Positions 6,800 to 64,000 of a DNA stretch of 64,000 nt are shown here, piece after piece. The stretch is from an uncultured Lysobacteraceae bacterium. GTDB taxonomy: Bacteria; Pseudomonadota; Gammaproteobacteria; Xanthomonadales; Xanthomonadaceae. Every line of letters begins with the position of its first letter. The first letter of the stretch is position 1. Below the pieces are notes generated by a model, which saw nothing but the letters and a program-made list of their open reading frames with translations, was not told where the DNA came from and ran no database searches. Made by a program: the position numbers and the translations under genes. The stretch covers positions 7,669 through 71,668 of the forward strand of contig CAMLLG010000012.1 in the NCBI GenBank assembly GCA_946480825.1, read 5' to 3'.

Positions 6800-9700
6800 A
6801 TGGATGAGCGGTCCCCAGAGACGATCGCCATCGCGACCGCTTCCGGCGAGGAAGCTGCCGGAACAGCTTGTGCGATCGTGGGGATGTCGCTCCGAATGCC
6901 CGGCGGTTGCGATTCTCCTGCTGCCTTCTGGCGCTTTCTGCAGGGCGAGGCTCACCCCGTCGCGTCCCTCTCGGAAAAGCGTTTCTCCTGGCCCGAATTC
7001 ATCGACCCGCAGGGCACGCACGTCGGTATCGACCGGGCATGCCTGATCGACGATGTCGAACACCAGGACATGACCTTCTTCGGCGTTTCCGCGAAGGAAG
7101 CCGAACTGATGGATCCGCAACAGCGGATCCTGCTCGAATTGAGCTGGGAGGCGCTCGAGAGCGCCGGCATCCCTCCATCCACGATCGGCGGTTCGACGAC
7201 CGGCGTGTTCGTCGGCGTCTGCCATTCCGACTACCGGGAGCTCGTCGCCAGTCGGGCGCTGACGCCGGAGGCCTATGTCGGCACCGGCAATATCCCGTGC
7301 ATGCTCGCCAACCGGCTTTCCTATTTCTACAACTTCAAGGGGCCGAGCTATACGGTCGACACCGCCTGTTCGAGTTCGTTGTTCGCGGTCGCCGAAGCCG
7401 TCAATGCGATCGCTCGCGGCGACTGCGAACAGGCCCTGGTCGGTGCGATCAATCTGCTGCTCACGCCGACGAGTTCCATCGCTTATTACCAGTCCGGCAT
7501 GCTGTCGAGCGACGGGACCTGCAATCCGTTCGACGATGCCAGCGACGGTTACATCCGCGGCGAAGGCGCCGGCATGCTGGTGGTCAAGTCGCTGGAAAAG
7601 GCGCGACGCGACCGCGACCATGTCCTTGGAATCGTCCGTGCGGTGGCGATCAATCATGGCGGCAAGGGGCGATCGCTCACCGCACCGAGTGCGCTCGCCC
7701 AGTCGCAGGTATTGGCGAAGGCCATCGAACGCGCCGGCGTACGTACCGACAGCATCAACTATATCGAGACCCACGGTACCGGAACTCCGGTAGGCGACCC
7801 GATCGAGATCGTCGGCATCGCCCGCGGTCTGGCCCGGGTCGCCAAACAGCAGGGCGTCGCACTGCCCGAGGCGCACTGCGCGCTCGGCGCACTCAAGTCG
7901 CGCATCGGCCACGCGGAGGCCGCCGCCGGCATGGGAGCGATGGCCAAGGTGTTGCTCGCCATGCACCACCGTTTCTTGCCGTCCAATCCGCGACTGACGA
8001 TGGTCAACCGGCGGATCGATCTCGACGGCGGCCCGCTTTTCCTGCTGCGCGAAGGACGGCCATGGCGATCGCCCGAGGACGATCCCGAGACCGGCACGTT
8101 GCGTGCCGGCATCAGTTCGTTCGGGTTCGGTGGCACCAATGCGCATCTCCTGCTCGAATCGGGCGACGGCCGGCCGGTTCGCTCGCACGACGTGGGTGGC
8201 GGGCCCTGGGCCTTCGGCTGGTCGGCGCGAACCGACGAACGATTGTCGGCGACCGCGCGCAGATATCTGGATTGGTTGTCGGATCCGTCCACTGCCGACG
8301 TGAGGCCGCGCGATCTGTCGAAAACGCTGCTCGCGGGTCGCGAGCATATGGCGTGCCGTATCGCTTTCGTCGCTTCCACGCTGGATGAAGTGCGGGCGAT
8401 GCTGCAGGGTTTCGTCGAGGGGCGGGACTCCCCGGGTCTTTATCGCACCGGGGTGCCGGGCGCCCCCGGTATCGAGGTTGATCCGAACACCGATGCCGGG
8501 CTCGAAGCGAGGCTGCGGCGCTGGGCCGGCGGCGAAGAGGTGGAGGTCCGCTGCGACGACGCGGAGGCCCGCATCCTGCCGTTGGCGCCGACGTATCCGT
8601 TCGATCGCAAATCCTACTGGCTCCCCTGGCGGCAGGCCGAGGCCGGCGGCACCGTCGTCGCGGAAACGATCCACCCGTTGTTGGGCAGGAACGTCTCCGA
8701 TTTCCGGCGTCAGGCGTATCGGACCGTGTTTCTCCCGCAGCACCCGCTGCTCGCCCAGCACCGCGTCGCGGGTCGTGCGGTCCTGCCTGCAGCCGCCTGT
8801 GCGGTCATGGGATTGCACGCCGTCGCCGATGCCTGCGGGATCCCGCTGGCGCAGGCTCTGGATGGGTGCATTTCCCTGAATGCCTTCGAATGGCGTTCGC
8901 CATTGTCCGTCGACCGCGAACCGGAGACGGTCGAACTGCGTCTGTTCCCGCGTGCGTCGCGGGATATCGGCCTGGAGTTCGTCGACCGGACAGGACACGT
9001 CTTCTGCTCGGGCGTCGCCCGGGTCGCCGCGGTCGAAGCGAACCCCGCCGCGCCCGGCGAAGACGTGGCGTCGCTTCCCGCGACCGGCGCTTTGCCGCAT
9101 GGGGCCGAGGCCTGCTACGCGCGCTACCTCGAGAAGGGTCACGAGTACGGCCCTGCCTACCGCACGGTGGTGGCTCTGGGGCGGGATCGCTCCGGCTGGG
9201 TCGGGCGACTCGAGTTGCCCGCGGACGCGACTGACGATCCGTTGCCGAGCGAACTGATCGACGGTGCCCTGCAGTGCGTTCTGGCGTCGGAATTGGACGG
9301 GGTCGCGGATCTCCGTCCGGTGATGCCTGTTGCGATCGACGCCATGCGCGTTTTCGCCCCGTGCCCGCGGTCCGTGCATGTGCGCGTGAGCCCTTCCCCG
9401 CGCGCGCGCGCGGAAGACACCTTCGATATCGACATGCGTGCGCCGGACGGCAGGCTTTGCGTCCGCATCGAGGGCGCGCGTTTCGTGCGGCCGACGCGCG
9501 AACAGCTCGATGCGCTGTTCGCGGAACGCCGTACCGGAGACGCGCCGATGCAGGATGCGCCTCCCGCGGCGGTCACCGCCGCGTCGCCCGATGCCGTGCG
9601 CAGGGTGCTGGTCGGGATGGTCGCCGAGTTGTGCCGCAGCCCGGAGAACGCGATCGAGCCGACACGCAATTTCAGCGACTACGGCCTTGACTCCCTCCTG

Positions 9701-16963: not shown

Positions 16964-17027
16964 GCGTCGGGATTCGCGCCTCCGATCCATGCGGTTAGGT
17001 CATTCAGGAATCAGAGCTCTTCGCAAG

Positions 17028-20000
17028 ATGGAACCGATGGTCAATGCATTGATCCAGGAGATCGCCCGACGCGGCATACGCCTCTCGGTCGTCGATGGTC
17101 GTCTGGTGGTCGATGCCCGGCAGAACGCGGTCGACGAATCGCTCAAGGAGGGAATCCGCGAGCACCGCGATGCGTTGATCGCCCAGATCGCGCGCGTCAG
17201 CGCGATCGATGTGCGCGATGCCATGGAACCGATCGTGCCCGAACCGGAACGCGCGCATCTGCCGTTCCCCTTGTCGGACCTGCAGTTGGGGTTCTACATG
17301 GCCAACGATCCCTACATGGAATACCACGTTCGGCCCCATTGCTACATGGAGATGGACCGCGAAGCGGGATTCGACGTCGGCCGCTACGAAGCGGCGTGGA
17401 ATCGCGCCCTGCGTCGCCATGCCCTGGGATTCCACCTCATCAACGCGGATCTGATGCTGGAGAAGGTGCCCGATCCGGCGCCGATCCGGATCGCGGTCCA
17501 GGACTTCCGCGCGCTCGAACCGGCGCAACGCGACGCGGCGCTGTCCGCGATACGCGGCCAACTGGAACGCCGCGAACTCCCGCTGGACGTCTGGCCATGG
17601 TTCGATCTGTGCGCTTCGGTCTGGCTCGAAGATGGTCGGGAGCGTTGCCGCATCCATTACAACCACAACAGTTTCTTCGTCGACGGATACGCCACCACCC
17701 AGTTCCTGGCCGAAATCGAGCGTTACTATCGTGATCCGTCGGCGACGCTGCCGCCGCGCACGTTGTCGTATCGCGACGCGATCCTCGCCATTCGGGCGCT
17801 GGAAGCGTCGCCGCCGGGCCAGCGTGCCCGCGATTATTGGCTGTCGCGTCTGGACGCGCTGCCGCCGCCGCCGGACCTGCCCCAGGTGCAGGGATTGGAG
17901 CGGCGGCGGCGCTCGATGCTGGATCGCCGCGCCGCGCAATTGCCCAAACCCGTCTGGGATGCGTTCAAGAGCAGGGCCAACAACGCCAAGATCACGCCAT
18001 CGAATGCGATCATCGCGGCTTACGCGCATGTGATCGCGATCTGGAGCCAGAACGATCATTTCATCTTCAGCCAGATGGTGACCCGGCGATTCGCCGAATT
18101 GCATCCGGAAATCAAGACGCTCATCGGCAATTTCGCCTCGCTCTATCCGCTGGAGATCCGCATCGATCGCGGCGCGACGTTCCGGGAGACGGCGGCGGCG
18201 ATCCAGGATCAGGTGATGGCGGATATCCGCCATCTGCAGTACGGCGGCATGCAGGTACTGCAGGAGCTGAACCGGCGCAAGGGCGGTTTCGGCACCGCGC
18301 CCAGTCCGTTCGTCGTGGGCAGCGGTTTGTTCATGAAGGAGTACCTCAAGTACGACTACGTGCTGCTGGAAACTTCGCAGACGCTTCTCGATCATCAGTT
18401 CTTCGAACTGCCGGACGGCACCTACTACTACGTCTGGGACCTGATCGAGGCGTTCTTTCCCGAGGGATTGATCGATGCGATGTGGGCGGCGTTCGGCCGC
18501 CTGCTCGATGCGCTCTGCAACGACCCGTCGGCCTGGGATGTCCCTGTCCGCGGACTGGTCGGAATGGACGACACCGCGAAGCGGCGACAGCGCAACGCCA
18601 CGATGCAGCGTTTTCCGGAAACGCTGCTGCATGCGCCGCTGGCCGAGCGGCTGCGGATCGGCGCCGATGCCGTCGCCGTACGGCAGGGCGCGGCAGTCGC
18701 GACCTGGGCGCGGATCGATGCCTGCAGCGACGCGATCGCCGCCCGCGTCGCGACCTGCGTCTGGCCGGAAGGCGGCACGCGCACGGTCGCGGTGGTGATG
18801 CCGCGCTGCAGGGAGACGCTCGCGGCGGTGATCGGTGTGTTGAAGGCCGGTGCCGCCTACGTGCCGATCGACCCGAATCTTCCCGCACGCCGGCGGGAAA
18901 TCCTCATCGGCGACGCCGGCGCGCCGCTGGTGCTGACGACCCGCGCGCTCCGCGACGCGTTGGACTGGCCTGATGACGTGGACGCGGTCGTCGTCGATGT
19001 GGATGCCGCTCCGCAGCCGTTGCCTGTGCGCCTCGACGCGGTGGTCGACCCGGAAGAGCTGGCCTATGTCATCTACACCTCGGGTACCACGGGGCGGCCG
19101 AAGGGCGTGATGATCGCGCATCGCGCCGCGATGAATACCGTCCAGGATATCAACCGTCGCTTCGGCGTCGGTCCGACGGATCGTCTGTTCGGTATTTCGG
19201 CGTTCAATTTCGACCTGTCGGTGTACGACCTCTTCGGTGCGTTGGAAGCGGGCGCGACCCTGATCTATCCCGAGGTCGACGCCGCGCTCGATCCCAACCA
19301 CTGGCTCGACACCGTGCTTGCGGAGGCGGTGACCGTCTGGAATACCGTGCCCGCGTTGATGGATCTGCTGGTCGAAACCGCGGAGCGCAGACAGGTGCGG
19401 TTCGAATCGTTGCGCCTGGTGCTGCTCAGCGGCGATCGCATTCCGACCGATCTGCCGGCGCGCATCCATGCAGCGGCGCCGAATGCGACCGTGGTGGCGC
19501 TCGGCGGCGCGACCGAGGCGGCGATTTGGTCGATTCTCTATCCGCTGGAGCGCGGCACGGCCTACGACACGGCCGTGCCTTACGGTTATCCGATGGCGAA
19601 TCAACGCTGGCACATCCGCGACGGATATGGCGAGGACGTGCCTACCTGGGTGCCGGGCGAACTCTTGATCGCCGGGGACGGTCTGGCTGTCGGTTATCTC
19701 AACGATCCGGAAAAAACCGCGCGCAGCTTCGTCGCCGATCCCGACAGCGGCGAGCGTTTGTATCGCACCGGAGATCTTGGCCGCTATCTCCCCGATGGGG
19801 TGCTCGAGATCCACGGTCGCATCGACCATCAGGTCAAGATCCAGGGGCATCGCATCGAGTTGGGCGAGATCGAGGCGACCCTGTTGCGGCACCCCGAGGT
19901 ACGCCAGGCCGTGGTCACCATCCGGGAGGCCGGAACTCGGCGCGCACGCCAGCTCACGGCCCATGTCTGCCCGGCGGCGGCGCGCGAAGGGCTCGTGGCC

Positions 20001-34992: not shown

Positions 34993-34993
34993 C

Positions 34994-40139: not shown

Positions 40140-40188
40140 GTCGAAAGGTCGATCGCTGTCGTCTGCGGCGGATGCCGGGAGGCGAACG

Positions 40189-41294: not shown

Positions 41295-42527
41295 ATGAAC
41301 GCGCCAGCAGTCGCATCATCGTACGCCGCGGAAGATCGCGACGATTGCATTTCGTACGCGCTCGCGCCGCGCGATTTCGAATTCAGCGTCAAGGCGACGA
41401 TCGAAACCATCGAAGCGACCGTGAAGGCCGATGGCGCGATCGTGATCGAAAGTTTTCTGGATTACATTCCGACATTATCGTCCGGGACGGATGCGGTTTC
41501 CGAAGAATTCTCGATCGAGTACATCTGCGACCCTGCATTGGAAAGCGCGCTCCGGAGGCGTGTCTCGGACTCGTCGCACGACCTGTTCTGGATCAAGGTC
41601 GACGTCTGTTTTCTGCGTCTCTCCGACGGCGAGCGCACCGTTTACGTTTCGCACATAGACGACATCACGGGGGAAGACTACGCGATCGTGGTCGTCGGGC
41701 GTCGTTATCGAGTGGTGTGCGCCGCGCTCACCGAAAAGATTTCCCGAGTCTCGGTGCGGCTCTTTCGTGAAATCCTGTTGCGCTGCCTGGAGAACGTGGG
41801 TGGTTGCTTCGCCCATGCGGCGGCGCTGTGCACGCGCGATGGCCTTCGAGGGTTGCTCGTGATCGGCGATTCGGGAGCCGGAAAATCGACGACGGTCTGG
41901 CAGTTGTGCCGCACCGGACGCTTCGACTACGTCAGCAACGACAAGAGCGTCGTCGTGGGCGGCGAACGCACGATCCGCATCGTTTGCTGGCCTCTGGCGG
42001 TACGCCTGGGTATGGGCGCGCTGAGCGCTTCGGGCCGGCTCGACGTCTATCGAAGCAAGGGACAGGTCCGCGAACAGGAAGCGTCCTTGTGGAATCAGCG
42101 GGTCGACGCGCTCGACGAGAAGAGATCCAATTGGGGCAACAAGGTGAAACTGTCGCTGACCCCGCGGGAACTGCATGCCCACGACGGGATCCGCAGTCGC
42201 GACGCCTGTCCCTATTCCGCTTTGCTGGTCCCCAAACTGGCGCTCGGCGACGGCCCGTTGCGGCTTGTCGAGAGCGGGTTCGCATGTCATCGCGACATGG
42301 TCCTGCGCAATCTGCTCGAGCCCTACGACGAGGACATCGGTCGCGGTTGGCTGGGGCTGCGCACCGTGGACGATGCGTTCCTGGAAGCGCGAAAAGCGGA
42401 TCTCGTCCTCCGGATCGAGGCACGCCCGGTCTATGAACTTCGTGGCGATCCGGAGCTTTTCCCCGCCGAAGTGGAACGCATCGCGGACGAGATCGAGGTC
42501 CGTTGCCGAGCGCTCACGGAGAGTTGA
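41295..42527 (+). CDS. HPr kinase/phosphorylase-like ATPase
   Basis: 410 aa starting at ATG 41295 after AGGGAGAGAAAAGG; the upstream in-frame extension is inside the previous gene. The C-terminal part has a P-loop GDSGAGKST (about 191-199) preceded by HAAALCTRDGLRGLLVIG, the layout of the HprK-like fold, while the N-terminal 180 residues are unassigned. HprK-like proteins in natural-product clusters, notably lasso-peptide clusters, phosphorylate serine or hydroxyl groups of the peptide. It lies 20 bases after the APH-type kinase and 3 bases before the oxidoreductase, so the three are co-transcribed. A phosphate donor role for the final peptide or a carrier-bound intermediate is plausible. Which residue it modifies is unknown. 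Confidence 0.75.
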   Translation: MNAPAVASSYAAEDRDDCISYALAPRDFEFSVKATIETIEATVKADGAIVIESFLDYIPTLSSGTDAVSEEFSIEYICDPALESALRRRVSDSSHDLFWIKVDVCFLRLSDGERTVYVSHIDDITGEDYAIVVVGRRYRVVCAALTEKISRVSVRLFREILLRCLENVGGCFAHAAALCTRDGLRGLLVIGDSGAGKSTTVWQLCRTGRFDYVSNDKSVVVGGERTIRIVCWPLAVRLGMGALSASGRLDVYRSKGQVREQEASLWNQRVDALDEKRSNWGNKVKLSLTPRELHAHDGIRSRDACPYSALLVPKLALGDGPLRLVESGFACHRDMVLRNLLEPYDEDIGRGWLGLRTVDDAFLEARKADLVLRIEARPVYELRGDPELFPAEVERIADEIEVRCRALTES

Positions 42528-44171: not shown

Positions 44172-44278
44172 AAGAATACGGATCGCAAGGCCTTGTCGGC
44201 CGGTGTGCCGGTCATGAATTCGATGCCGGCCGTGCCGATCGGCTCGAGGCCAAGCATGAGAGAAGGAGATCGAGATGA
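44168..44278 (+). CDS. 36-codon ORF bridging the oxidoreductase and the NRPS gene by 4-base overlaps
   Basis: The ATG at 44168 overlaps the oxidoreductase stop (ATGA) and the TGA at 44276-44278 overlaps the ATG of the NRPS at 44275 (ATGA), so the ORF exactly fills the gap. The 36-residue product is charged and Arg-rich at its end (KHERRRSR). The last codons contain the AAGGAG ribosome site (44263-44268) of the NRPS. It may be translated mainly to carry ribosomes across to the NRPS start, or it may be chance. No homology is recognisable. Confidence 0.35.
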   Translation: MKEYGSQGLVGRCAGHEFDAGRADRLEAKHERRRSR

Positions 44279-51800: not shown

Positions 51801-54800
51801 GCGATCGCCGGCGATACCCAGCTCGTCGCCTATGCGGCGATCGCGGAGGGCCAGAGCTTCGAGGAAGACGCTCGTCAGGAGCTGGTGCGCGCGTTCAAAT
51901 CGTCGCTGACGCGCTCCTTGCCCGATTACATGATACCGGCCATCTTCGTTTGCCTCGAGAAGATGCCGTTGACGAGCAGCGGCAAGATCGATCGCAAGGC
52001 GCTGCCAGCTCCTGGGGAAAACGATCGGCGGACGCGGGACTATGCGCCGCCGCGCAACGAACTGGAGCGTTCGCTCTGTCTGCTCTGGCAGGATCTGCTC
52101 GGTGTGGAGCGAGTCGGAATCGAGGACAGTTTCTTCGAGTTGGGCGGACATTCGCTGTTGACCACGCGGATGATCAGCCGGATCCGGGACGAGCTCGGCA
52201 TCGAGGCCGGCGTCGCCGCGCTCTTCGAGCATCCGACCATCGCCGAATTCGCCGGCGTTCTGCTGTCCCAGCAAACGGAGGCGCCGCTGCCTGCGATCGA
52301 GCCGGTCGCCGATCGCGATCTGCTGCCGCTGTCGTATGCGCAACAGCGTCTCTGGACCATCGATCGCCTCGAAGGGCAGAGCGCGCAGTACAACATGCCG
52401 TACGGCTTCACCCTGAAGGGCGGAATCGATCGAGATACGATCGAGCGTACCCTGAAGACCATCATCGAGCGTCACGAAACGCTGCGTACGCGATTCGTCG
52501 AGGTCGATGGCCAGGTCATGCAGCGCGTCGATCGCGATTTCGGATTCCGTCTGATCGAGCGCGATCTGACCGACCTTCCCTGCGATGCGCAGCGCGCCGA
52601 GATCCGTCGCATCTCGATCGAGGACGAAAAGACCCCCTTCGACCTCGGTCGCGATCTCATGATCCGTGCGCAGATGCTGGTCCTGTCGGAGCGCGAGCAT
52701 GTGCTGCTGTTCAACATGCACCACATCGCTTCGGACGGTTGGTCGATGAAGCTGCTGGTGCTCGAGTTCTATCGCATCTATACGGCCTATCTGCACGGCA
52801 GGGAGAATCCGCTGCCGCCGCTCGCCCTGCAATACGGAGATTACGCGAGTTGGCAGCGCAGCTGGCTGTGCGGAGAAGTCCTGGAGGCGCAGATCCGCTA
52901 CTGGCAGACGCGCCTTCGCGGGATTCCGCGCGTGCATCGGTTGCCGCTCGACAAGCCCCGGCCGAAACGGCAGACCTTCAACGGCGATTCGATCGCGGCG
53001 ACCATGGGGGAGGTCGACATCGATGCCGCCCGCCGTTTCTGTCAACGCTGCGGCGTCACCCTGTTCATGTTCATGCAGACCGCGTTCGCGATCGCGCTGT
53101 CCCGCTGGAGCGGCGAAAGCGATATCGTCATGGGCACGGTCGCCGCCGGACGCGGACACAAGGACGTGGAGCCGATCATCGGGTTTTTCCTGAATACCGT
53201 CGTGCTGCGCACGCAGGTCGACGACGATGTTCCGTTCGAGCAGCTTCTGCTCGAGAACAAACGTCATATCGTCGACGCCTACGCGCACCAGCATGTGCCT
53301 TTCGACATGCTGGTCGAGCGGTCGAATATTCCCCGCAGTCCCCGCTACAATCCGATCTTCCAGATCATGATTTCGCTGCTGGACGATCGCAACGAAGGCA
53401 TGACTCTTTCGCAGACGGACCTCCAGCTGGAGATCGTCAAGCGCAGGAAGAGCACCGCGAAATTCGAGCTGGTGCTGAACATGACCGAGTCGGCTCGGGG
53501 CATGAAGCTGTCGCTGGTCTACAACAGCGATCTATTTTTCGGCGAATCGGCCGAAGCGCTGCTTGCGTTGGTGCTCGCGATCGCGTCGGATGCGGTCGCG
53601 GCCGGAACGACGCCGGTCGGCATGCTTCCGCATCCAATTCCGCATCCAGTTCCTCGCCAGTCTCCACCGCAGGCGACGGCGGTCGATCTCCGGACCGCGA
53701 TCGCGCGCTTCATCGCCGGCGACATCGCTCCGCGGTTGCATGTCTGGCGGGACGGGCAGGCGCATGTCCTTGCCGCGGATGAGCTGCGTGCCGAGGTCGC
53801 ACACGCGCGCGAACGGATCGACGCTGTGCAGGCCGGGCGCGCCATCGCGGTGCAATTGTCGCCCCACGCGGAGGCGGCGGTCTGCGCGCTTGCTGTGTTG
53901 TGCTCAGGTCGTCCGCTCGTCGTCGTGACCGCTTCCCAGGACGAGGCGCTCGTACGTCACGCTCTGCTCGACAGCGATGTGGCGCTTGCGATCGGCGCCG
54001 ATGGATCGTCGTTGCAGCGCGTCGCGTCGGCGGTCGGCACGGCGTGGCAGCGCTCGCGAATGGCGGTGGACAGCGGGTCGGATGGCCGTTTGGCCGAGCA
54101 GTCGCGCTCGCTTTCGCCGCATGCGATCGCGATCTACGACCGCGACGTGCAAGGGCGCGCGATACGGCGGACCATCGCTGCTGAAGCGTTATTGCCGCCT
54201 CCTTTCGCCGACCGCAGCGATGCCGCCCTGCTGGCGTTCACGGGAGACGAACCCGGTGCATTGATCGTCGGTCTGATCGTCCCGTTGCTCCACGGACATG
54301 CGCTGCACGCGATGGCGTCGCATTCTCGTGCGAGTTTCGATGCCGCATGCTCCTCGGGTGAGTGCGAAGCGGCGGTGATCGCGCTGGAGCAACTGGCGGT
54401 CCTGCCCGCTTCGGCCGATGCGCCTGCGTGCCCATTGCGTCGCATCACCGTCGTGGACGGCGTATACGCACCGCAAGCCATCGTCGATCGAACGACTACG
54501 CTCCCCGGGATCGAATGGCATGCGATCGCGAGTGCCGATGCGTCGAAGCTACCGTATCTCGCGTTCCGTGCGGCAACAGGCGATCCGGCGACCGGGGACG
54601 GCTTGCGCTGGCATGCATACGGTTTCGATTGCCGGATTCTCGATGAGCGCGATCGCCCGAGTGCTTCAGGGTGCCCCGGACGACTCCGTGTCGGGCCGCC
54701 ACGAACCCCGATCGAAGACATGCAATGCTCCGGCCTCGTCGCGCGGCAGCGCAGGGACGGTGCGATGGATGTCGCCGGTCCGCAGGGGACGCAATGGAGC

Positions 54801-55424
54801 GTGGTGGAAGGGCGGTTCGACGCCTGGCGCCTGCGCCGCCTTCTGCAGGCCGTCGGCGGCGTGCGCTGGGTAGGGCTGCGCGCCGAAGATCCCGGTGGCG
54901 ATGCGCAGAGGATCTCTGCATGCCTCCTGGTCGACGCGAACGACGCGCAGGCCGTGGGCCGGCGCGATGCCGGAATCGACGGTGTCATTTCGGCGTGGAC
55001 ACAGGAAACGGGAACCCTGGTGCATGCGGTCGCGATCGAAACGTTGCCGCTTTCTACCAGCGGCGACGTCGATTGGGCGGCCTTGCCGGTGGCGGCGACC
55101 CGTGCGGACCGGGTGCGCAGCGGCGATGATGCCGTCGGCGCCACGGAGCGCGCGTTGATCGAGATATGGGGCAGGGCGCTCGGCGGGCGGCGCTTCTCGG
55201 TCTCCGATAATTTCTTCGCCGCCGGCGGCAATTCCCTGTTGATGATCCTGGTGATCAGGAAGATCGCGGACGCTTTCGACATCGATATTCCGATGGCGAC
55301 GTTCATGTCGGCGGCCACGATCGAGGAGCTGGCGCAGCTCATCGACTTCGCACTCGCACAGCGGGATTCCGGCAAGAATATTTCCACCGATGCCGAGGAC
55401 GGCATGGAGGAAATCCTGCTGTGA
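48876..55424 (+). CDS. NRPS: TubC docking - C - A(Gly) - T - C - degenerate A - T
   Basis: 2182 aa from GTG 48876 (GGAGGGAGAG upstream). TubC_N docking 1-60. C1 has an intact HHIVSDAW (His211-212, Asp216). A1 has code D I L Q L G M I W K, one change from the glycine code DILQLGLIWK (Asp737 = position 235). T1 has Ser1093. C2 has HHIASDGW (His1282-1283, Asp1287). From about 1585 to 2075 there is a region with A-domain length and topology but without its motifs: the A3 loop reads LAFTGDEPG, YGPTE and the YRTGD aspartate are absent, and A10 reads TSGDVDWAAL with no catalytic Lys. It is almost surely a dead adenylation domain. T2 (Ser2120, AAGGNSLLM) must therefore be loaded by another A domain, such as the stand-alone one at 2959-5463. 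The C-terminus is acidic (EDGMEEILL). Confidence 0.92.
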   Translation: MTRAAEIVAAAVERGCYLFVEDGKLRYRAAEGALDDALRESIVAHREEVIAHLERLAGDERARKSRLPDLVAYPATGRSPLSHAQQRLWFIDRLNEGSVQYNLPSAFSVRGVFDADRFIEAIRIVVRRHAVLRARFREADGQPYAEILADPPLTVRRHDLSAMQAPLRDERLRQLISDDAGAPFRIDRDMMLRVGIVRMSDDEHAILFNMHHIVSDAWSLRILIGELSAIYPALEAGGQDPLPPLKYQYADYALWQQRWLQGAVLQAELAYWKRQLAGAPILHGLPLCRPRPERQSFAAKLVQASASAALSMRLQMLCQRYDVTLFMLMQTAFSVLLGRYSGEEDIVVGTPVAGRLHRDLEPLIGFFVNVLVLRTDLSGAPSFEALLRRNKSTVVEAYDHQSISFDMLVEELKPPRSLAHSPIFQIMLTMQQKGNRRLSLGPLDLELIEKSALRAPYDLELSVLEEQQLQFSLKYAESLFDDGFAHALIENFIVLLESIAADPGRCIHDLEILSDPERARIQSWSAGERLAMPPSPLHELIRERASLEPARVALRHDDHALTYAQLDAAANRLARRLCEEGVGRGDLVGLCIERSLDLPVCLLAVLKAGAAYLPMDPHHPPQRIAYMAGDAGAKVMLAGAGQRPLMADLDMPVLYIDGDHFRVTLAAFDGGSPPETAIPTRGDDLAYVIYTSGSTGLPKGVMVEHRQLANFHHAMRRVVDASVGDPVWLAVTNYCFDISILELLCTLAAGFTVVIADDRHVQASSGSVGGTTLATLIERHAVTHLQSTPSLLSMFVRDPDFARALGRLRQLLVGGEALAPDLLHAIAAATPAFIDNMYGPTETTIWSTTDRLRAGQQAIGIGRPLANTRVHVLDPRMRPLPVGVPGELFIGGDGVARGYRHREELTLERFVTPEWAGERLYRTGDKVFWRDDGSLGFLGRFDHQIKLRGFRIELGEIEAALSAHPAVVSAAVLPVAIAGDTQLVAYAAIAEGQSFEEDARQELVRAFKSSLTRSLPDYMIPAIFVCLEKMPLTSSGKIDRKALPAPGENDRRTRDYAPPRNELERSLCLLWQDLLGVERVGIEDSFFELGGHSLLTTRMISRIRDELGIEAGVAALFEHPTIAEFAGVLLSQQTEAPLPAIEPVADRDLLPLSYAQQRLWTIDRLEGQSAQYNMPYGFTLKGGIDRDTIERTLKTIIERHETLRTRFVEVDGQVMQRVDRDFGFRLIERDLTDLPCDAQRAEIRRISIEDEKTPFDLGRDLMIRAQMLVLSEREHVLLFNMHHIASDGWSMKLLVLEFYRIYTAYLHGRENPLPPLALQYGDYASWQRSWLCGEVLEAQIRYWQTRLRGIPRVHRLPLDKPRPKRQTFNGDSIAATMGEVDIDAARRFCQRCGVTLFMFMQTAFAIALSRWSGESDIVMGTVAAGRGHKDVEPIIGFFLNTVVLRTQVDDDVPFEQLLLENKRHIVDAYAHQHVPFDMLVERSNIPRSPRYNPIFQIMISLLDDRNEGMTLSQTDLQLEIVKRRKSTAKFELVLNMTESARGMKLSLVYNSDLFFGESAEALLALVLAIASDAVAAGTTPVGMLPHPIPHPVPRQSPPQATAVDLRTAIARFIAGDIAPRLHVWRDGQAHVLAADELRAEVAHARERIDAVQAGRAIAVQLSPHAEAAVCALAVLCSGRPLVVVTASQDEALVRHALLDSDVALAIGADGSSLQRVASAVGTAWQRSRMAVDSGSDGRLAEQSRSLSPHAIAIYDRDVQGRAIRRTIAAEALLPPPFADRSDAALLAFTGDEPGALIVGLIVPLLHGHALHAMASHSRASFDAACSSGECEAAVIALEQLAVLPASADAPACPLRRITVVDGVYAPQAIVDRTTTLPGIEWHAIASADASKLPYLAFRAATGDPATGDGLRWHAYGFDCRILDERDRPSASGCPGRLRVGPPRTPIEDMQCSGLVARQRRDGAMDVAGPQGTQWSVVEGRFDAWRLRRLLQAVGGVRWVGLRAEDPGGDAQRISACLLVDANDAQAVGRRDAGIDGVISAWTQETGTLVHAVAIETLPLSTSGDVDWAALPVAATRADRVRSGDDAVGATERALIEIWGRALGGRRFSVSDNFFAAGGNSLLMILVIRKIADAFDIDIPMATFMSAATIEELAQLIDFALAQRDSGKNISTDAEDGMEEILL

Positions 55425-55515
55425 TCGCAGTACGGACGAACGCGCGCAACGCCGCCGCCCCCATCATATCGCGTGGTCGTGTCGCGGTTCGCGGCCGTCG
55501 CAAGGGAGATCAATC

Positions 55516-58500
55516 ATGACGGCGGAAAATGCGGTGCGCTCGATCCTCGAGCGCGGGCGGGGCGTGTTGTTCGACGATGCTGCGATCCGGGTTCTGTGCG
55601 CGCTCGACGATGCTGATATCGCGGACGGCTCCCTTTGCTGTTTCGAAGACGTCGTCGCGATGCCGCATGAGAGCGCCGTCGCTTCCGTGTCGGAATTTCC
55701 GTTGATCAACCCGTTGGCGCCGGATCGTCAGCCGTCGGCGGACGCCTCGCCGCGTACCGCGCTGGTCACCCATCGTCTCCCGGCATGCGACGTCGATCTT
55801 CTGCGCGATGCGCTGGTGCTGTTGCTTTGGCGCTGGAGCGGCGAGGAGATCGTCGCCCTCGAAACCGCAACGATGAAGGCAGTTCCGGCGTCTCCGGGTT
55901 GTTTGCGCGCCGAGCGGGGCGCGCTGCGGGTTTCGATGTCCGACGATGTCGATAGGGCCGCATTGCGCCGTGCGGTGGAAGCAGGGGTCGTGGCGGCACC
56001 GAGCGACGACACGGATGCGCAGGACCGGTTCCGCTTCGTGGTGCAACCGGATCCCGCCATGCGGCTTCTCCCTCTGGAGATCGTGCGTCTGCTGCGAGGC
56101 GTCGATGCGCCGTCGCGACTCAGGCACGCCTTGATCCTGCATGCGGCGCGCGACGAAGAAGGTTGGACCTGCCATTGGCTGCATGACGGAAACCGGTACG
56201 CGCGTAGGACCGTCGAAGGCCTGACGCAAGGCTTGGCGATACTGCTCGAAGGGCTGAGCGCAGCCACGGGCGCGTCGCTCGCGGAGCTGCCGCTCGCGCC
56301 GCCCCGAATCGAGGATCGCGCACCGGTGTCTTTTCGCGAAGCGCTGCCGCGGCCTTTCGAAAGCGTGTCTGCGCAGGTGCGGAAACAGGCGCGTTCGACG
56401 CCGGATGCGATCGCGGTGCGGCAAGGCGATGGCGTGTTGCGTTACTGCGAGCTGGAGGTGCGCGCGGATCGGTTGGCGCGGTTGCTGCGCAGACGCGCCG
56501 GCATCGGTCCCGGCGACGTCGTCGTGCTGTGTCTGGATCGTACGATCGATCTGCCGGCGACGGTCATCGGCGTGCTCGCGACGGGCGCCGCTTATGTGCC
56601 CGTCGATCCCTCGCACCCTCCCGCGCGCATCGCACGGGTCGTTGCGGATGCGGGTGCCCGCTTCGTCGTGACCACGTCCCGCTACCGTGCGGCGCTCTTG
56701 CCGAGCGATCTGGTCGCCGTCTGCGTCGACGACGCGGATGTGCTTGCGGCGATCGAGAATGGCGGTGAGGATGACGAATCTCCGCTTCCCACGCCATCGC
56801 CGACGGATGTCGCGTACGTGCTTTACACGTCCGGTTCGACCGGAGAGCCGAAAGGCGTTTGCATCGAGCACGGCGCATTCGCGCATTTCATGCAGGAGAT
56901 GCGTCGGGCGATGGCCGACATCGGCCCGCGGCGCTGGTTGGCCGTGATCACGCTGACCTTCGACATGTCGCTGGTCGACCTTTTCCTTCCGTTGTGTCGG
57001 GGCGATTGCGTGCGTATCGCCGCGGCGGAGGACGTCGCCGACGGCGATGCCCTGAGGGAGCTGCTCGACACGACGCAGGTCGACGCCATGCAGGCCACCC
57101 CGACCACTTGGCGCATGCTGATCGCCGCCGGCTGGAACGGTCATCCCCGGATGCTCGCCATCACCGGCGGCGAACCGCTGACCCGGACGCTCGCCGATGC
57201 AATGTTCGCACGCTGCAGCGCGCTGTGGAACGGATACGGTCCGACCGAAGCGACCGTCTACTCGTTGTTTCGCGAAGTGGACCGCAACGAGGAACCGCTG
57301 CGCCGTCTCGCGATCGGAGGAAGCGTCCCCGGGGTTGCGCACTACGTGCTCGATGGGCGCTTGCGTCCGATGCCGGACGGCGCGACGGGCGAGCTGTACA
57401 TCGGCGGGCCCGGGCTGGCCCGCGGTTATCACGGCAAACCCGAGCTTACCGCGCGCCAATTCATCGCCCACCCCTTCGATCCGACGCCGGGTGCCCGCCT
57501 GTACCGCACCGGCGACAGGGTACGGCGTCTTCCGGAGGGCGATCTGCAATATCTCGGCCGGATCGATGCGCAACTCAAACTCCGGGGCTACCGCATCGAA
57601 CCCGGCGAGATCGAGTACGCACTGCTGGGCGAGTCGACGGTCGAAGATGCCGTTGTCGATGTGCGCACGATCGACGAGATGCAGACTCTGGTCGCGTTCG
57701 TGAAGCCTCGGGCGGGAGTCCTCGACGATATCGGCGCTTCGCTCCGACGCCGGCTCAGGTCGCTGTTGCCGCCGTACATGGTTCCGGAACGATTCGTCGT
57801 GGTCGATGTCTTCCCGCGGACCTCCAGCGGCAAACTCGATCGCAAGGCGCTCGCCTTCGACGCATCGTCGCGCGCGACCGCCGCCGCCACCGAATTCGTA
57901 TCCGATCCGCTGGAAGCCGCGCTGATCGGGATCTGGCGCGATCTGTTCGAACGCGAGGAGATCTCGGTTTCCGACAATTTCTACGAACTCGGCGGAAATT
58001 CCCTGTTGATCGCGAAAATGCGGAAAGCGATCCACGATCTGCTCGGCTTTGCGCTGGACTATCGCGTGCTGTTCGAGCACGACTCGGTACGCGATCTGGC
58101 CGCTCATCTGCGCGCGCTGCCGACGTCGGCGTCGGCGCCGTCGAACGCGTCGTTGCCCGTCGAGACCGCAGCCGCGGACGGCAGTCTGTGCGCGACGGCC
58201 CTGCAGAAGCACATGTGGACGACCACCCAGCGACGCGATGCCGCCGCAGCCTACAATATTCCGATTTTCTTCCGGGTCTCCGGTGCGCTCGATCCCGATC
58301 GGCTGCGCGCGGCCCTGGGTCGGCTGGTGCTGGCGGTGCCCGCGCTTCGTGCCTCCTTTTTCGTCTCCGATGAGGGCGCGATCCGGCAACGGATCCTGGA
58401 CCGCCGCGAGGCGCCACTGAAAGTGATCGTGCCGACGCGACAGGAAGGCGCCGATCGTGAAGCCGAGGTGGCGGACATCGTCCGTCGCGAAGCCTGTCGT

Positions 58501-61356
58501 TCTTTCGATCTCGAGCATGACGCACCGATCCGGGCGGTGCTGGTGCAGACGGCGCCCGATGCGCAATTGCTGCTGATTTCGTTGCATCACATCGTGGGCG
58601 ACGAGGAGTCGATCGAATTGATCGCATCCCGGCTGGCCGCGCTGTATGCCGGCGTTCCGGGTGCCGACGCGCGCATCGTGGGAGAAGAGGAGGATGGATA
58701 TCGGGAATATCTGCGCCGGCATGAGACCGCGCGCGAACCCGAAATCGAGCAGGCCGATCTCGAGTATTGGGAGCGGGCCCTCGCCGGCATGCCGGAACTC
58801 CATCGTCTGCCCATCGACAGACCGCGGGGACCCCGCCAGACCTTTCATGGCGCGATTCACGAGCATGACCTCGATGCGGTCGTCAGCGCCCGGATTCGCA
58901 CCTTCTGCGCGCAACGCCGCACGACCCTCTACGTCTGCTTCCACACCGCGCTCGCGCTTCTGATTTCGCGCATGAGCGGTCAGAGCGATGTCGTGATCGG
59001 CATGCCGGTCAGCGAACGCCACCGTGGGCGGTACGGGCGCAATGTAGGCTGCTTCCTGAATGTCGCCATGCTGCGCTCGGAATCGACCGCCGGCCAGCGC
59101 TTCGCCGAACTGCTGCACGCCTCGCGCGGACGGATCGCGGAGGCGCTGCAGCACGATCGCGCATCGCTCTCCGATCTCGCCGTTCGCATGGGACTCGCCG
59201 GCACTGTCGATCATTCCGCATTCTTCCAGATCATGCTCGTCCAGCAGGTATCGGACTACCTGCGATTGCGGATGGACGACGCGTCGCTCGAGCAGTTCTA
59301 TCCGCCGCAGTCGCCGTCCAAGACGGATCTGATCCTGAATATCGCCGATCTCGACGAAGGCATCCGCCTGCGCTGGGAATACAATTCGGACCTCTGGCTG
59401 CCGGGGACCATCGCATCGATGGCGAAGCGTTTCTCGGAATTGCTCGAACGTGCGATCGCCGAGCCGGATTCGCCGATCTCGACGCTGTTTCCGATGCTCC
59501 CCGGCGATATCGAGATCCAGCGCGCCATCGATGGTCCCCGCATCGAATTCGGCCCGTTCGTGCCTGCGCACGCTCTGTTCGAGCGCCGCGCGCGGGCGCA
59601 GCCGGATACGATCGCATTGCGCCACGGCGACGAAATCGTTCGCTATCGCGAGCTGGACGCGCTCGCGGACGAATTGGCGGGCCGACTCGCCGATCGCGGC
59701 GTCGGACCGGGAACGATCGTCGCGATCGGAGTGCGACGCGGCATACGCATGGCGATGGCGATGCTTGCGGCGATGAAAGCCGGTGCGACTTATCTGCCTT
59801 TGGATCCGACGCATCCGCCTGAACGCCTGGAGTTGATGTTGCGCGACGCGGGAGCATCGCTCTTGCTGGGCGAGGCGGCGACAAGTTCGATCTTCGCCGC
59901 AGCGCAGGTGCCGATCCTCGAAATCGACGTACCCGTTGCCGGCCCTGTCGCCTCGCCCCCGCATTGCGTCGCCGATCCTGCGCGCGACGCCTATCTCATC
60001 TACACGTCGGGTTCGACAGGCGTGCCGAAGGCCGTCTGCATCGGCAACGCGGCGCTCTCTCATTTCCTCGCGGCGATGTCCGAACGATTCCCGTCCGGAC
60101 GCCGTCGGTGCTGGCTGGCGGTCGTCACGCTGGCGTTCGACATGTCACTGGTGGATCTGTTCTGGCCGCTCACCCGCGGCGATACGGTTGTGATCGCGGC
60201 GGAAGACGATGTCAACGATGGCAGGCGGCTCAGGGCCCTGCTCGATACGCAGGGTGTCGATGCGATGCAGGCCACGCCTTCGACCTGGCAGTCGCTGTTG
60301 TCTGCCGGTTGGCAGGGGACGACGGGTCTGCTCGCGATCACCGGGGGCGAAGCGCTGACGGAATCCCTGGCGAAAGCGCTGTTGAGTCGCAGCGAAGAGG
60401 TATGGAACGGATACGGACCGACCGAGATTACGGTGTACTCGTTGCTGAGACAGGTGCGCGCCACCGATGGGCCGGTGGATCTGCTGAGCATCGGCGCTCC
60501 GCTGGCGAACGTCGATCATCGCGTGCTCGATCCGGACATGCGTCCGGTGCCTCCCGGCGTGGCGGGTGAGCTTTACATCGGCGGGCCGGGCCTTGCGCGC
60601 TGTTACCTGGGGCGGTCCGATCTCACCGATGAGCGGTTCGTCTCGCGACCCGATGTCGGCGAGGGAGAACGCCTGTATCGCACGGGGGACCTGGTCAGCC
60701 TGTTGCCCAGTGGCAACCTGCGCTACCTCGGCCGCATCGACCAGCAGGTCAAGCTGCGCGGTTATCGCATCGAACTGGGCGAGATCGAGCAGGCGATGCT
60801 TGCGATCCCCGGCGTCGTGCGAGCGGCCGCGGGCGTCAAGACCTGGGGCGAGACCTCGATCCTGGTCGGGTTCGTCTCGTTCGAATGTCCTGCGGATCCC
60901 TCGGCGCAGCGGCTTGCGGAGATCCGCCAACGTCTGGTCGATGCGCTGCCTTCGTACATGGTGCCGCAGATTCTGATCGAGCGCGCCGAATTTCCGCTGT
61001 CTTCCAACGGCAAGGTCGATCGCAATGCGCTTCTGCGCACGGTCGAGCGTCAGCAAGGCGTCGTCCAGCTCGAGACCGAGACCGAGCGCCGATTGGCGGC
61101 GCTGTGGGAAACGATACTCGGGGTCGACAGCGTGGGGGCGGACGGCAATTTCTTCGCCTTGGGCGGACAGTCGATATTGATCACCTCGTTGCTGTATCGG
61201 ATCCGCAGCGAATTCGGCATCGCGCTGCAGGTCGGTTGGGTCTACGAGGACCCGACCTTGCGCGGTCTCGCCGAGAAGATCGATCTGATGCAGGCGCTCG
61301 AACGCAGCGGCCACGCCTACGACGACCAGACGGATTTCGAAGAATTCGAACTATGA
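55516..61356 (+). CDS. NRPS: partial C - A - T - C - A - T, two modules of identical predicted specificity
   Basis: 1946 aa, ATG 55516 preceded by AAGGGAGA. The first 280 residues hold a docking-like segment and what looks like only the C-terminal lobe of a condensation domain; the HHxxxDG half is missing. A1 (Asp483 = position 235) and A2 (Asp1542) both give D M V Q I G G V Y K, a code I cannot assign. T1 Ser829, T2 Ser1886. The internal C domain keeps HHIVGDE (His1024-1025, Asp1029). Both A domains retain TSGSTG, YGPTE, YRTGD and NGK/SGK motifs and look active. The first module can probably not condense by itself, which suits loading of a first amino acid or acting with the preceding synthase in trans. 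Near-identical pockets suggest recent duplication and two equal residues in the product. The last residues DFEEFEL overlap the next start (ATGA). Confidence 0.9.
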   Translation: MTAENAVRSILERGRGVLFDDAAIRVLCALDDADIADGSLCCFEDVVAMPHESAVASVSEFPLINPLAPDRQPSADASPRTALVTHRLPACDVDLLRDALVLLLWRWSGEEIVALETATMKAVPASPGCLRAERGALRVSMSDDVDRAALRRAVEAGVVAAPSDDTDAQDRFRFVVQPDPAMRLLPLEIVRLLRGVDAPSRLRHALILHAARDEEGWTCHWLHDGNRYARRTVEGLTQGLAILLEGLSAATGASLAELPLAPPRIEDRAPVSFREALPRPFESVSAQVRKQARSTPDAIAVRQGDGVLRYCELEVRADRLARLLRRRAGIGPGDVVVLCLDRTIDLPATVIGVLATGAAYVPVDPSHPPARIARVVADAGARFVVTTSRYRAALLPSDLVAVCVDDADVLAAIENGGEDDESPLPTPSPTDVAYVLYTSGSTGEPKGVCIEHGAFAHFMQEMRRAMADIGPRRWLAVITLTFDMSLVDLFLPLCRGDCVRIAAAEDVADGDALRELLDTTQVDAMQATPTTWRMLIAAGWNGHPRMLAITGGEPLTRTLADAMFARCSALWNGYGPTEATVYSLFREVDRNEEPLRRLAIGGSVPGVAHYVLDGRLRPMPDGATGELYIGGPGLARGYHGKPELTARQFIAHPFDPTPGARLYRTGDRVRRLPEGDLQYLGRIDAQLKLRGYRIEPGEIEYALLGESTVEDAVVDVRTIDEMQTLVAFVKPRAGVLDDIGASLRRRLRSLLPPYMVPERFVVVDVFPRTSSGKLDRKALAFDASSRATAAATEFVSDPLEAALIGIWRDLFEREEISVSDNFYELGGNSLLIAKMRKAIHDLLGFALDYRVLFEHDSVRDLAAHLRALPTSASAPSNASLPVETAAADGSLCATALQKHMWTTTQRRDAAAAYNIPIFFRVSGALDPDRLRAALGRLVLAVPALRASFFVSDEGAIRQRILDRREAPLKVIVPTRQEGADREAEVADIVRREACRSFDLEHDAPIRAVLVQTAPDAQLLLISLHHIVGDEESIELIASRLAALYAGVPGADARIVGEEEDGYREYLRRHETAREPEIEQADLEYWERALAGMPELHRLPIDRPRGPRQTFHGAIHEHDLDAVVSARIRTFCAQRRTTLYVCFHTALALLISRMSGQSDVVIGMPVSERHRGRYGRNVGCFLNVAMLRSESTAGQRFAELLHASRGRIAEALQHDRASLSDLAVRMGLAGTVDHSAFFQIMLVQQVSDYLRLRMDDASLEQFYPPQSPSKTDLILNIADLDEGIRLRWEYNSDLWLPGTIASMAKRFSELLERAIAEPDSPISTLFPMLPGDIEIQRAIDGPRIEFGPFVPAHALFERRARAQPDTIALRHGDEIVRYRELDALADELAGRLADRGVGPGTIVAIGVRRGIRMAMAMLAAMKAGATYLPLDPTHPPERLELMLRDAGASLLLGEAATSSIFAAAQVPILEIDVPVAGPVASPPHCVADPARDAYLIYTSGSTGVPKAVCIGNAALSHFLAAMSERFPSGRRRCWLAVVTLAFDMSLVDLFWPLTRGDTVVIAAEDDVNDGRRLRALLDTQGVDAMQATPSTWQSLLSAGWQGTTGLLAITGGEALTESLAKALLSRSEEVWNGYGPTEITVYSLLRQVRATDGPVDLLSIGAPLANVDHRVLDPDMRPVPPGVAGELYIGGPGLARCYLGRSDLTDERFVSRPDVGEGERLYRTGDLVSLLPSGNLRYLGRIDQQVKLRGYRIELGEIEQAMLAIPGVVRAAAGVKTWGETSILVGFVSFECPADPSAQRLAEIRQRLVDALPSYMVPQILIERAEFPLSSNGKVDRNALLRTVERQQGVVQLETETERRLAALWETILGVDSVGADGNFFALGGQSILITSLLYRIRSEFGIALQVGWVYEDPTLRGLAEKIDLMQALERSGHAYDDQTDFEEFEL

Positions 61357-64000
61357 ACATCGCCAGGCTCGTCAACGAATTGACCCAAAAGCGGGTGTTC
61401 CTGTCCGTCGTCGACGGCAAGCTCAAGGTCAAGGCGCCGGATGGCGTACTGACCGGCGAGCTGCTGGATGCGCTGAGGCGCGACAAGGACGAGATCCTGC
61501 GATTCGTCCAATCCAATCAGTCCTTGCTCGCCGACGTTTCGGACACCATTCCGGTCTATCCGCGCGGCGGCGACTTTCCGCTTTCGATCAGCCAGAAGCG
61601 GTTGTGGTATCTCGACCGGCTCGAAGAGTCGCTCTCCAGTACGTATCACATCTCCGGCGCGCTTCGCATGAAAGGCGATCTCAGGGTCGACACCATGTTC
61701 CGCGTGTTCCGAACGATCGTCGGCCGACACGAGGCGCTGCGTACGATCTTCGTCGAGGTCGACGGCGAGCCGCGCCAGGTCATTCGCGGCCACGAAGGGT
61801 TCGAGCCGCAACTGCTGGACCTGCGCGATGTCGTCTCGGCGGTCGAACGGGAAGAGCGCCTGCGCGCGCTGATCGCGGAACATGCCGCGGCGCCGATGCG
61901 GATCGATCGCGATTACATGTTGCGGATCACCCTCGTCGCGATGGGGGATTTCGACCATGTGCTGCTGTGGAAAATGCACCACATCGCTTCCGACGGCTCC
62001 TCGATCGGAGTGCTCATCAACGAGATGACGACGCTGTATCGTGCTTTTCTTCGCGGATTGGACGATCCCCTGCCGCGACTGGCGATCCAGTACCCGGATT
62101 TCGCGCGTTGGCAGCAGGACTGGCTGAAGGGAGACGTGCTGGTCCGGCAGTTGGACTACTGGAAGCGAAAGCTGGATCAGGCGCCGCGCTTGCACGGCTT
62201 GCCGCTCGATCGTCGCCGCCCCCCGGTGCAGCGTTTCCACGGGGATCACGTGCGTTTCGAGCTCGACTCGGCTCTGGTGCGCGACCTCAATCTGCTCAGC
62301 AGGCAATACAGCGCCACGCTGTTCATGACCATGCTCGCGGCCTTCGCCGTCGTCCTCAAACGGCACGGCGGCCAGGACGATGTCGTCGTCGGCACGCCGA
62401 TCGCCGGCCGCACCCATTCCGAACTCGCCCCTCTGATCGGTTTCTTCCTCAATACGCTGGTGCTGCGCATCGACCTTTCCGGCGACCCCACGTTCGTCGA
62501 TCTTCTCGAACAGACGAAGCGCAATACGCTCGAGGCCTACGATCACCAGTACATTCCCTTCGAGATGCTGGCGGAGAATCTGTCCCACGGCGACCTGAGT
62601 CACAGCCCGGTCTTCCAGGTCATGCTGGTGATGCAGAATTACGAGCGTGGCGAGCTTTCTCTCCCCGGGCTCACCTTGATCAAGGAAAAAAACCGGCAGT
62701 CGACGGCGAAATTCGATCTGACCCTGACCCTCGTCGAGTTCGACGAGATCATCATCACCGATCTCGAGTACAACATCGATCTGTTCGATCGTGTCTCCAT
62801 CGAACGGCTTGGCGCGAGCCTGCGCGAAACGCTGGTCCGTGCGGCCGCCGATCCGAAGACGCATCTTCGCGCCCTGCTTGCGCCGAGCGAGAGCGAAACC
62901 GCCGAAGCGATCGCGCTGGGCGTGCCGATCGCTCCGCCGCTGCCGCCGCCCGTGCCGCTGCATCAGGCGTTCGCACGCTGCGCTGCGGCGCAGCCGACGC
63001 ACACCGCCGTGATCGCACCCGGTGAAGGCGAACTCGACTATGCCGCCCTGGATGCGCGTGCCAATCGTCTGGCCCATCGCCTGGTCGCCATGGGAGTTGC
63101 GCCCGGCGATCTCGTGGGCCTCTGTGTCGATCGCGGTCTGGATTTGGCGATCGGCGTGCTCGGCATCCTCAAGGCGGGCGCCGCCTACGTACCCCTGGAT
63201 CCGCTCTATCCGGAGATGCGTCTTCAACAGATCGCCGACGATGCGGCGCTGCGCTGGATCGTCGCCCAGTCGCGACACGCCGGGCTGCTGCCGGCGGCTG
63301 CGCAGTTGGCGCTCGTCGATGCGCCAACTGCGAGCGACGCGTCGACCGACGGTTTCGCGGAACCGCCAGAAATCGAGAACGCAGACGATCCGTCGCGCTT
63401 GGCCTACGTGATCTATACGTCGGGTTCCACCGGTACGCCGAAGGGCGTGGTCATCCGGCACGACAATGTGCATGCCTATTGCGCTGCAGCGCAGCGGCAC
63501 TACGGGATCGACGAGCGAGATCGTGTGCTGCAGTTCGCTTCCTGCAACTTCGATGCATTCGTCGAGGAATTCGCGATCGCGCTGACCTCGGGCGCGACGC
63601 TGGTGTTCCGCGACGAGAACATGCTGATCGATGGCGCGCGTTTCTGCGCGTATGTGCGGAAACACGGAATCACCGTCGTCAGTCTCCCGACCGCGTTCTG
63701 GCATCTTTGGGTCGAAGATCTGGACGATGCGCAGTTGACGGCGCTGTCGTCGTTGCGCCTGTGCATCCTGGGAGGAGAGCGTCTCGACGGGCGGGCGCTG
63801 GCCGGTTGGAAGCAGAAGGTCGACGAGCGGATCCGTTTGTTGAACACCTACGGGCCGACAGAAACGACCGTGGTCGCCACGGTCGCCGATCTGGGCGCGG
63901 ATGCCGACCTCGACGACCCGCCGATCGGCCGTCCGCTGGACAACACGCAGGCCTATGTGGTCGACGCGTCGCTGCGGCCGGTGCCGCCGGGTGTGGCGGG
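61353..64000 (+). CDS. NRPS: TubC docking - C - A(basic amino acid)... (3'-truncated)
   Basis: 882 codons are visible; the gene runs off the right edge in the middle of the A domain. Residues 1-55 are a TubC_N docking domain (LTQKRVFLSVVDGKLKVKA). The C domain has HHIASDGS (His209-210, Asp214), an intact HHxxxDG. The A domain starts near 520 with IYTSGSTGTPKGV and reaches YGPTETTVV. The pocket residues visible (positions 235-331) read D A E S I G T V V, very close to the published lysine code DAESIGSVC, so Lys or a similar basic amino acid is likely; position 517 lies beyond the edge. The start ATG overlaps the preceding stop, and the acidic tail of the upstream protein is a likely docking partner. 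Confidence 0.9.
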   Translation, partial: MNIARLVNELTQKRVFLSVVDGKLKVKAPDGVLTGELLDALRRDKDEILRFVQSNQSLLADVSDTIPVYPRGGDFPLSISQKRLWYLDRLEESLSSTYHISGALRMKGDLRVDTMFRVFRTIVGRHEALRTIFVEVDGEPRQVIRGHEGFEPQLLDLRDVVSAVEREERLRALIAEHAAAPMRIDRDYMLRITLVAMGDFDHVLLWKMHHIASDGSSIGVLINEMTTLYRAFLRGLDDPLPRLAIQYPDFARWQQDWLKGDVLVRQLDYWKRKLDQAPRLHGLPLDRRRPPVQRFHGDHVRFELDSALVRDLNLLSRQYSATLFMTMLAAFAVVLKRHGGQDDVVVGTPIAGRTHSELAPLIGFFLNTLVLRIDLSGDPTFVDLLEQTKRNTLEAYDHQYIPFEMLAENLSHGDLSHSPVFQVMLVMQNYERGELSLPGLTLIKEKNRQSTAKFDLTLTLVEFDEIIITDLEYNIDLFDRVSIERLGASLRETLVRAAADPKTHLRALLAPSESETAEAIALGVPIAPPLPPPVPLHQAFARCAAAQPTHTAVIAPGEGELDYAALDARANRLAHRLVAMGVAPGDLVGLCVDRGLDLAIGVLGILKAGAAYVPLDPLYPEMRLQQIADDAALRWIVAQSRHAGLLPAAAQLALVDAPTASDASTDGFAEPPEIENADDPSRLAYVIYTSGSTGTPKGVVIRHDNVHAYCAAAQRHYGIDERDRVLQFASCNFDAFVEEFAIALTSGATLVFRDENMLIDGARFCAYVRKHGITVVSLPTAFWHLWVEDLDDAQLTALSSLRLCILGGERLDGRALAGWKQKVDERIRLLNTYGPTETTVVATVADLGADADLDDPPIGRPLDNTQAYVVDASLRPVPPGVA

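Follow-up and report, generated by a model that had tools for sequence, protein, structure and literature searches.

Introduction

Known phosphonates are strong enzyme inhibitors and are mostly small and polar. PepM small-molecule clusters that take a phosphonolactate route contain pepM, which encodes phosphoenolpyruvate (PEP) mutase, together with a 2-hydroxyacid dehydrogenase and a nucleotidyltransferase, and have no recognisable decarboxylase. Hybrids of trans-acyltransferase (trans-AT) polyketide synthases (PKS) and nonribosomal peptide synthetases (NRPS) that form cysteine heterocycles have AT-less modules, a double ACP, Cy-A-T modules with Ox or MT inserts and TubC docking. Here we analyse a stretch of 64,000 nucleotides (the window) from contig CAMLLG010000012.1 of an uncultured Lysobacteraceae bacterium, which shares features of both: plus-strand PKS and NRPS genes of trans-AT type span 57 kb, and pepM lies inside that span. 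Both halves of the locus are of known kinds. Unlike the phosphonolactate-route clusters, the window holds its phosphonate block within a PKS-NRPS line, and the block includes a dehydrogenase without the usual Glu and a CofE-like protein; unlike the trans-AT hybrids, the line shows no discrete AT in the window and retains one degenerate AT. We know of no trans-AT PKS-NRPS hybrid with pepM, and of no precedent for the combination of the two halves or for the CofE-like protein. We judge the hybrid phosphonate/trans-AT PKS-NRPS locus to be real, and see an even chance that it serves as a single biosynthetic locus whose product is a polyketide-thiazole peptide bearing a phosphonate.

The phosphoenolpyruvate mutase

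Window proteins were scanned with Pfam and NCBIfam profiles, and motifs were read separately. The pepM gene (29849..30736, plus strand; alternative start 29819) encodes a protein that matches PF13714 and scores 339.3 bits against TIGR02320 (cutoff 319.55). A first-pass annotation of this DNA had placed a PEP phosphomutase with an EDKx5NS loop between the PKS and NRPS genes, and the loop is present there as EDKLFPKMNS. The best solved relatives are the PEP phosphomutases 1m1b and 1pym; the 1m1b alignment covers almost the whole protein, and the W, S, D, D, D, E, K, N, R and H positions, which we take to be those of the active site, are alike. By these features, PepM has what the conversion of PEP to phosphonopyruvate needs.

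Three phosphonopyruvate decarboxylase (Ppd) queries found no match in the window at E ≤ 1e-5 (best 0.07), with approximately 24 kb of an 88-kb contig lying outside it. One class V aminotransferase query gave a best E of 1.7 against the window, and no aminotransferase family occurs among the Pfam-scanned window proteins. A single PntC-type domain query (L042; tblastn) was also without a window match at E ≤ 1e-5, its best hit (0.21) lying elsewhere than at the nucleotidyltransferase-kinase described below.

The PKS-NRPS assembly line

Judged by domain content, PKS1, NRPS1, NRPS-PKS and NRPS2 to NRPS5, all on the plus strand, make up a PKS-NRPS line of trans-AT type that includes modules for Cys heterocycles. 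PKS1 (6800..16963) reads KS-DH-ACP-ACP-ER-KS-DH-KR-MT-ACP, followed by NRPS1 (17028..21203, with another in-frame ATG at 16989; TubC dock-Cy-like-A(Cys)-T-TE) and NRPS-PKS (21200..28660; TubC dock-Cy-A(Cys)-MT-T-KS-AT-T). On the other side of the pepM block are the thiazole module NRPS2 (44275..48879; Cy-A(Cys)-Ox-T), NRPS3 (48876..55424, GTG start; TubC dock-C-A(Gly-like)-T-C-A(degenerate)-T), NRPS4 (55516..61356; an N-terminal stretch of ~290 residues without an assigned domain, then A-T-C-A-T) and NRPS5 (61353..63998, truncated where the window stops; TubC dock-C-A(Lys-like)).

The AT-less PKS of the first-pass annotation holds for PKS1, which has no AT, and fails for the third PKS module, in NRPS-PKS, where the AT is degenerate rather than absent: GHSxGE is replaced by GTDIGE, so the domain is presumably inactive. 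On both counts the modules would lack an integrated active AT, as in trans-AT systems. The window proteins scanned with Pfam include no discrete AT; approximately 24 kb would lie outside the window if it comes from the 88,108-bp contig. Re-reading of codes and inserts bore out the three Cys modules, one with an oxidase and one with a methyltransferase (DLYNLSLIW, DLYNWSLIW and DLYNLSLIW, read by motif spacing and then re-read), and the Gly-like (DILQLVMIW) and Lys-like (DAEVCLTVV) modules, in Stachelhaus-type readings for which we presume the amino-acid meaning of the codes. Both A domains of NRPS4 give DMVQATGVY, matched to no substrate. In one Cys module an MT is inserted within the A domain; in another, the insert carries the YPSAGS motif of a nitroreductase-type Ox domain. 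PF00881 was not called in NRPS2 itself and is listed for its relatives P0011, P0012, P0025 and P0028. The Cy motif DxxxxDxxS beside the Cys A domains appears as DFLVVDAWS and DMLVADAMS, and in NRPS1 as the variant NSFFVDGYA, with the first Asp gone. Yersiniabactin/pyochelin-type thiazoline synthetases likewise have Cys codes, Cy domains, a TE and an MT placed within an A domain. The window line has Gly-like, DMVQATGVY and Lys-like modules in addition, and neither a salicylate synthase nor a TonB receptor family turned up among the Pfam-scanned window proteins.

Joint expression from one strand, as had been proposed, stands in part. Five 4-base overlaps join plus-strand genes (21200/21203, 33979/33982, 37888/37891, 48876/48879 and 61353/61356), while a single operon does not fit, because a minus-strand gene (39579-40145) splits the run into at least two plus-strand units. 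The cluster probably takes in 908-6399 on the minus strand, upstream of position 6800, and continues beyond the right window edge, where the last A domain is cut. That gene and that upstream cassette, like the degenerate AT, the degenerate A domain and the two DMVQATGVY A domains, had not appeared in the first-pass annotation.

Apparent linkage in related contigs

The protein database reports, for each match, the longest contig carrying that protein. The window pepM and CofE-like protein are both on an 88,108-bp contig, each being recorded on three contigs. The next pepM relative (81%) and the next CofE relative (73%) are on contigs of the same size (70,824 bp), as are another pepM (69%) and a relative of the Cy-A-Ox-T NRPS (55%; 65,527 bp). 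Besides the window's own, these are the only two size equalities among the listed 120 pepM, 119/120 NRPS2 and 7 CofE matches, and none of the 5,936 pepM/NRPS2 pairs longer than 10 kb among the listed matches falls within 20 bases yet is unequal. Linkage of pepM to the CofE-like gene and to the Cy-A-Ox-T NRPS thus looks conserved as far as contig sizes indicate, and, with the tight spacing in the window, points to pepM and the PKS/NRPS line as one locus, as first annotated. In a quick tree of 68 rows, five pepM sequences group together as a single clade with SH-aLRT 100. The same A-domain motif residues and the YPSxG oxidase motif are retained in the NRPS2 relatives P0011, P0012, P0025, P0028 and P0050. 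The CofE-like gene and most other block genes did not turn up in 74 pepM loci from GTDB genomes, and no close relative of the locus was found in GTDB contigs (pepM query), plasmids or the literature searched.

Two adjacent pathways would give the same layout; in that case the pepM block, placed among PKS-NRPS genes by chance, would supply a small phosphonate of its own or else a surface glycan or lipid bearing a phosphonate. A GT2-type glycosyltransferase-like membrane protein (30718..32034, plus strand; DFD and GAGLF motifs by eye, no Pfam match, and a single-sequence model at pLDDT 41, unusable), an NTP_transf_5 nucleotidyltransferase (36052..37116, plus strand; PF14907, 8.2e-20) and the RmlA/LicC-like nucleotidyltransferase-kinase resemble surface-decoration genes, and most bacterial phosphonate capacity is said to serve cell surfaces (PMC6697681). 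Phosphonate/PKS neighbourhoods also arise elsewhere, since an Opitutaceae locus (L034) has a pepM-nucleotidyltransferase fusion and Ppd near an AMP-ligase-ACP-KS-AT PKS gene, a joint product being unproven. Against chance adjacency, pepM and the Cy-A-Ox-T NRPS seem to have stayed linked at 69%/55% identity, PKS-NRPS genes flank the pepM block on both sides, and the window gave no match to Ppd, class V aminotransferase or PntC-type queries (three, one and one) and no Pfam aminotransferase family. We consider two pathways somewhat unlikely.

A known compound or close relative, gone unrecognised, would also account for the line, and MIBiG and subscription papers lay outside the search. Among the best 120 of 3,885 NRPS2 matches, those beyond P0010-P0012, P0025, P0028 and P0050 share 40-52% identity with the query over 58-100% of its length, and their names, e.g. 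yersiniabactin NRPS, MbtB and tyrocidine synthase, are automatic only. The literature searched, as far as its text was accessible (including PMC12858407, PMC12723261 and PMC9666466), yielded no trans-AT PKS-NRPS product with a phosphonate attached, which is consistent with the earlier statement that no such product has been described; in the accessible text of a 2026 quantitative phosphonate review, the terms polyketide and thiazole occur zero times (PMC13302981). We give a known compound scarcely any weight.

A proposed route to the phosphonate

Under the single-locus reading, we infer attachment of the C-P unit to the peptide via phosphonolactate and a CofE-type amide. PepM would convert PEP to phosphonopyruvate. 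A D-2-hydroxyacid dehydrogenase family protein (32075..32968, plus strand; PF02826, 1.3e-32; aligned to 1wwk) is a candidate phosphonopyruvate reductase, and because a decarboxylase is not recognisable, we propose that it would pull the reaction by drawing phosphonopyruvate on to 3-phosphonolactate. This compound is the C-P isostere of 3-phosphoglycerate.

A nucleotidyltransferase (residues ~1-240) fused to an APH/choline-kinase-like domain (37888..39531, plus strand; PF00483, 5.9e-23) may cap the phosphonate as a nucleotide ester. In its kinase-like part HGDLVFSN and IDPRG motifs were read by eye, and Pfam made no call. The motif SGNASRLWPLTLETPK is near the consensus GXG(T/S)RX4-8PK of PntC/LicC cytidylyltransferase pathways, and LicC (1jyk, 6e-6) is among the solved relatives, with RmlA-type proteins nearer; unlike in those pathways, the fusion partner is kinase-like and not PepM or a transaminase. 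Nucleotidyl activation is common in phosphonate pathways (PMC6697681).

The CofE-like protein (33979..34992, plus strand) has a predicted F420 gamma-glutamyl ligase fold behind an N-terminal lipoyl/biotinyl-like barrel (residues ~1-80), and might form an amide between the phosphonolactate carboxylate and an amine, for example on the peptide. In F420 biosynthesis, CofE couples glutamate to the carboxylate group of a phospholactyl phosphodiester. Compared with CofE (2phn, 7uld), the window protein is set apart by its barrel, a sub-cutoff Pfam score and a rare family, for which six relatives were found (5/6 listed with PF01996); no F420 genes were noticed in the window. In its most specific form, the proposal is F420-tail chemistry on a C-P unit: nucleotide-capped 3-phosphonolactate would mimic the FO-phosphoglycerate of 3PG-F420, and the CofE-type ligase, with its carrier-like barrel, would couple the carboxylate to a peptide amine. 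We regard this form as unlikely. One CofE-like relative, P0009 (44% over 80%), is a hypothetical protein on a 92-kb contig of Bacillus thuringiensis, so the family is perhaps not confined to clusters of this kind.

Also in the proposed route, APH-like and HprK-like kinases could protect or finish the product. The former is an APH/homoserine-kinase-like protein (40189..41274, plus strand; PF01636, 6e-15) and the latter an HPr-kinase-related protein (41295..42527, plus strand; TIGR04355, 2.1e-6, 27.1 bits, far under the cutoff of 200). The minus-strand gene (39579..40145) encodes a P-loop kinase-like protein (P-loop by eye; weak dTMP-kinase/AAA matches, all below cutoff). Enzymes of the HprK-like and nucleotidyltransferase kinds act on lasso peptides that carry phosphate, and the window has at least three genes for kinase-like proteins and two to three for nucleotidyltransferase-like ones, which would suit a phosphate-bearing product in which these enzymes phosphorylate the peptide and pepM is otherwise used or a relic. 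The intact PepM motif, the passed equivalog cutoff and the conserved orthologous clade argue against this, and we lend it little credence.

Several observations weigh against a phosphonate-bearing peptide made in this way. Shared contigs were taken from equal size and not from DNA, and neither related contig showed all three genes (no CofE match at 65,527, no NRPS2 match at 70,824). The minus-strand gene interrupts the plus-strand run. With only three Ppd queries, a distant Ppd of the type in actinobacterial loci may have escaped. The dehydrogenase has DVLDVGKD in place of the DVFEEEPLPKD of 1wwk, so that the Glu with a catalytic role in 2-hydroxyacid dehydrogenases is not conserved. The CofE fold was seen on a mediocre model (pLDDT 68, pTM 0.61) with low TM-scores to CofE (0.34-0.37 by query length) and a PF01996 score of 21.7, below the cutoff of 25. 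A phosphonate substrate is assignable to no A domain in the line, and decoration with phosphate or a role in surface glycans would suit the GT-like, NTP_transf_5 and HprK-like genes as well.

Neighbouring genes and other pepM loci

The remaining genes of the block are on the plus strand. A HupE/UreJ-type membrane protein (permease; 29128..29760; PF04955, 1.4e-46) lies just before pepM. Two amidohydrolase-2 family enzymes flank the CofE-like gene, the first (32990..33982; PF04909, 4.2e-23) with PtmU3 as top solved relative and the second (34994..36043; PF04909, 2.7e-5) at 24.5 bits, short of the 26.4 cutoff and placed also by solved relatives. An HpcH/HpaI-type class II aldolase (37133..37891; PF03328, 7e-17; solved relatives) and a GMC oxidoreductase (42531..44171; PF00732, PF05199) complete it.

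Upstream, the minus-strand cassette could prepare a starter unit. It encodes an acyl-CoA dehydrogenase-like protein (908..2014; PF02771, 2.7e-5, 25.0 bits, cutoff 22.9), a KAS III-like protein (2008..2943; PF08541, 1.9e-5, 25.2 bits, slightly below the cutoff of 26.6), a standalone A domain followed by a ~290-residue C-terminal extension (2959..5463; PF00501, 7.8e-68; TIGR01733 above cutoff) and a protein with a C-terminal carrier (T) domain (5467..6399; PF00550, 1.5e-16). The extension has a nucleotidyltransferase-like GS...SDLD motif by eye and no Pfam match.

The Opitutaceae metagenome-assembled genome (MAG) locus L034 (1-9064) has the pepM-nucleotidyltransferase fusion, Ppd and a class V aminotransferase near the divergent PKS gene, and a second Opitutaceae MAG locus (L031) has pepM plus the start of a similar PKS protein. 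In Pseudoalteromonas byunsanensis (L045, 1701-12254), pepM is beside an NTP_transf_5-like protein (just under cutoff), an MFS exporter and a haem-oxygenase-like protein, with M3 peptidase and MacB/HlyD exporter genes, a phosphonate-type locus of unfamiliar make-up. The Actinopolyspora mzabensis locus (L046, 4004-16975) contains pepM, a class V aminotransferase, two ATP-grasp L-amino acid ligases, and 2-hydroxyacid dehydrogenase, PGK-like and semialdehyde dehydrogenase genes.

Implications

To our knowledge, a phosphonylated trans-AT PKS-NRPS product would be the first known. If a phosphonate is indeed carried on a large polyketide-thiazole scaffold here, it would define a new class of product and illustrate how assembly-line products can acquire C-P units. 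For the joining step, the CofE-like protein is a tangible candidate enzyme, and the F420-tail route, if true, would be a new way of installing phosphonates.
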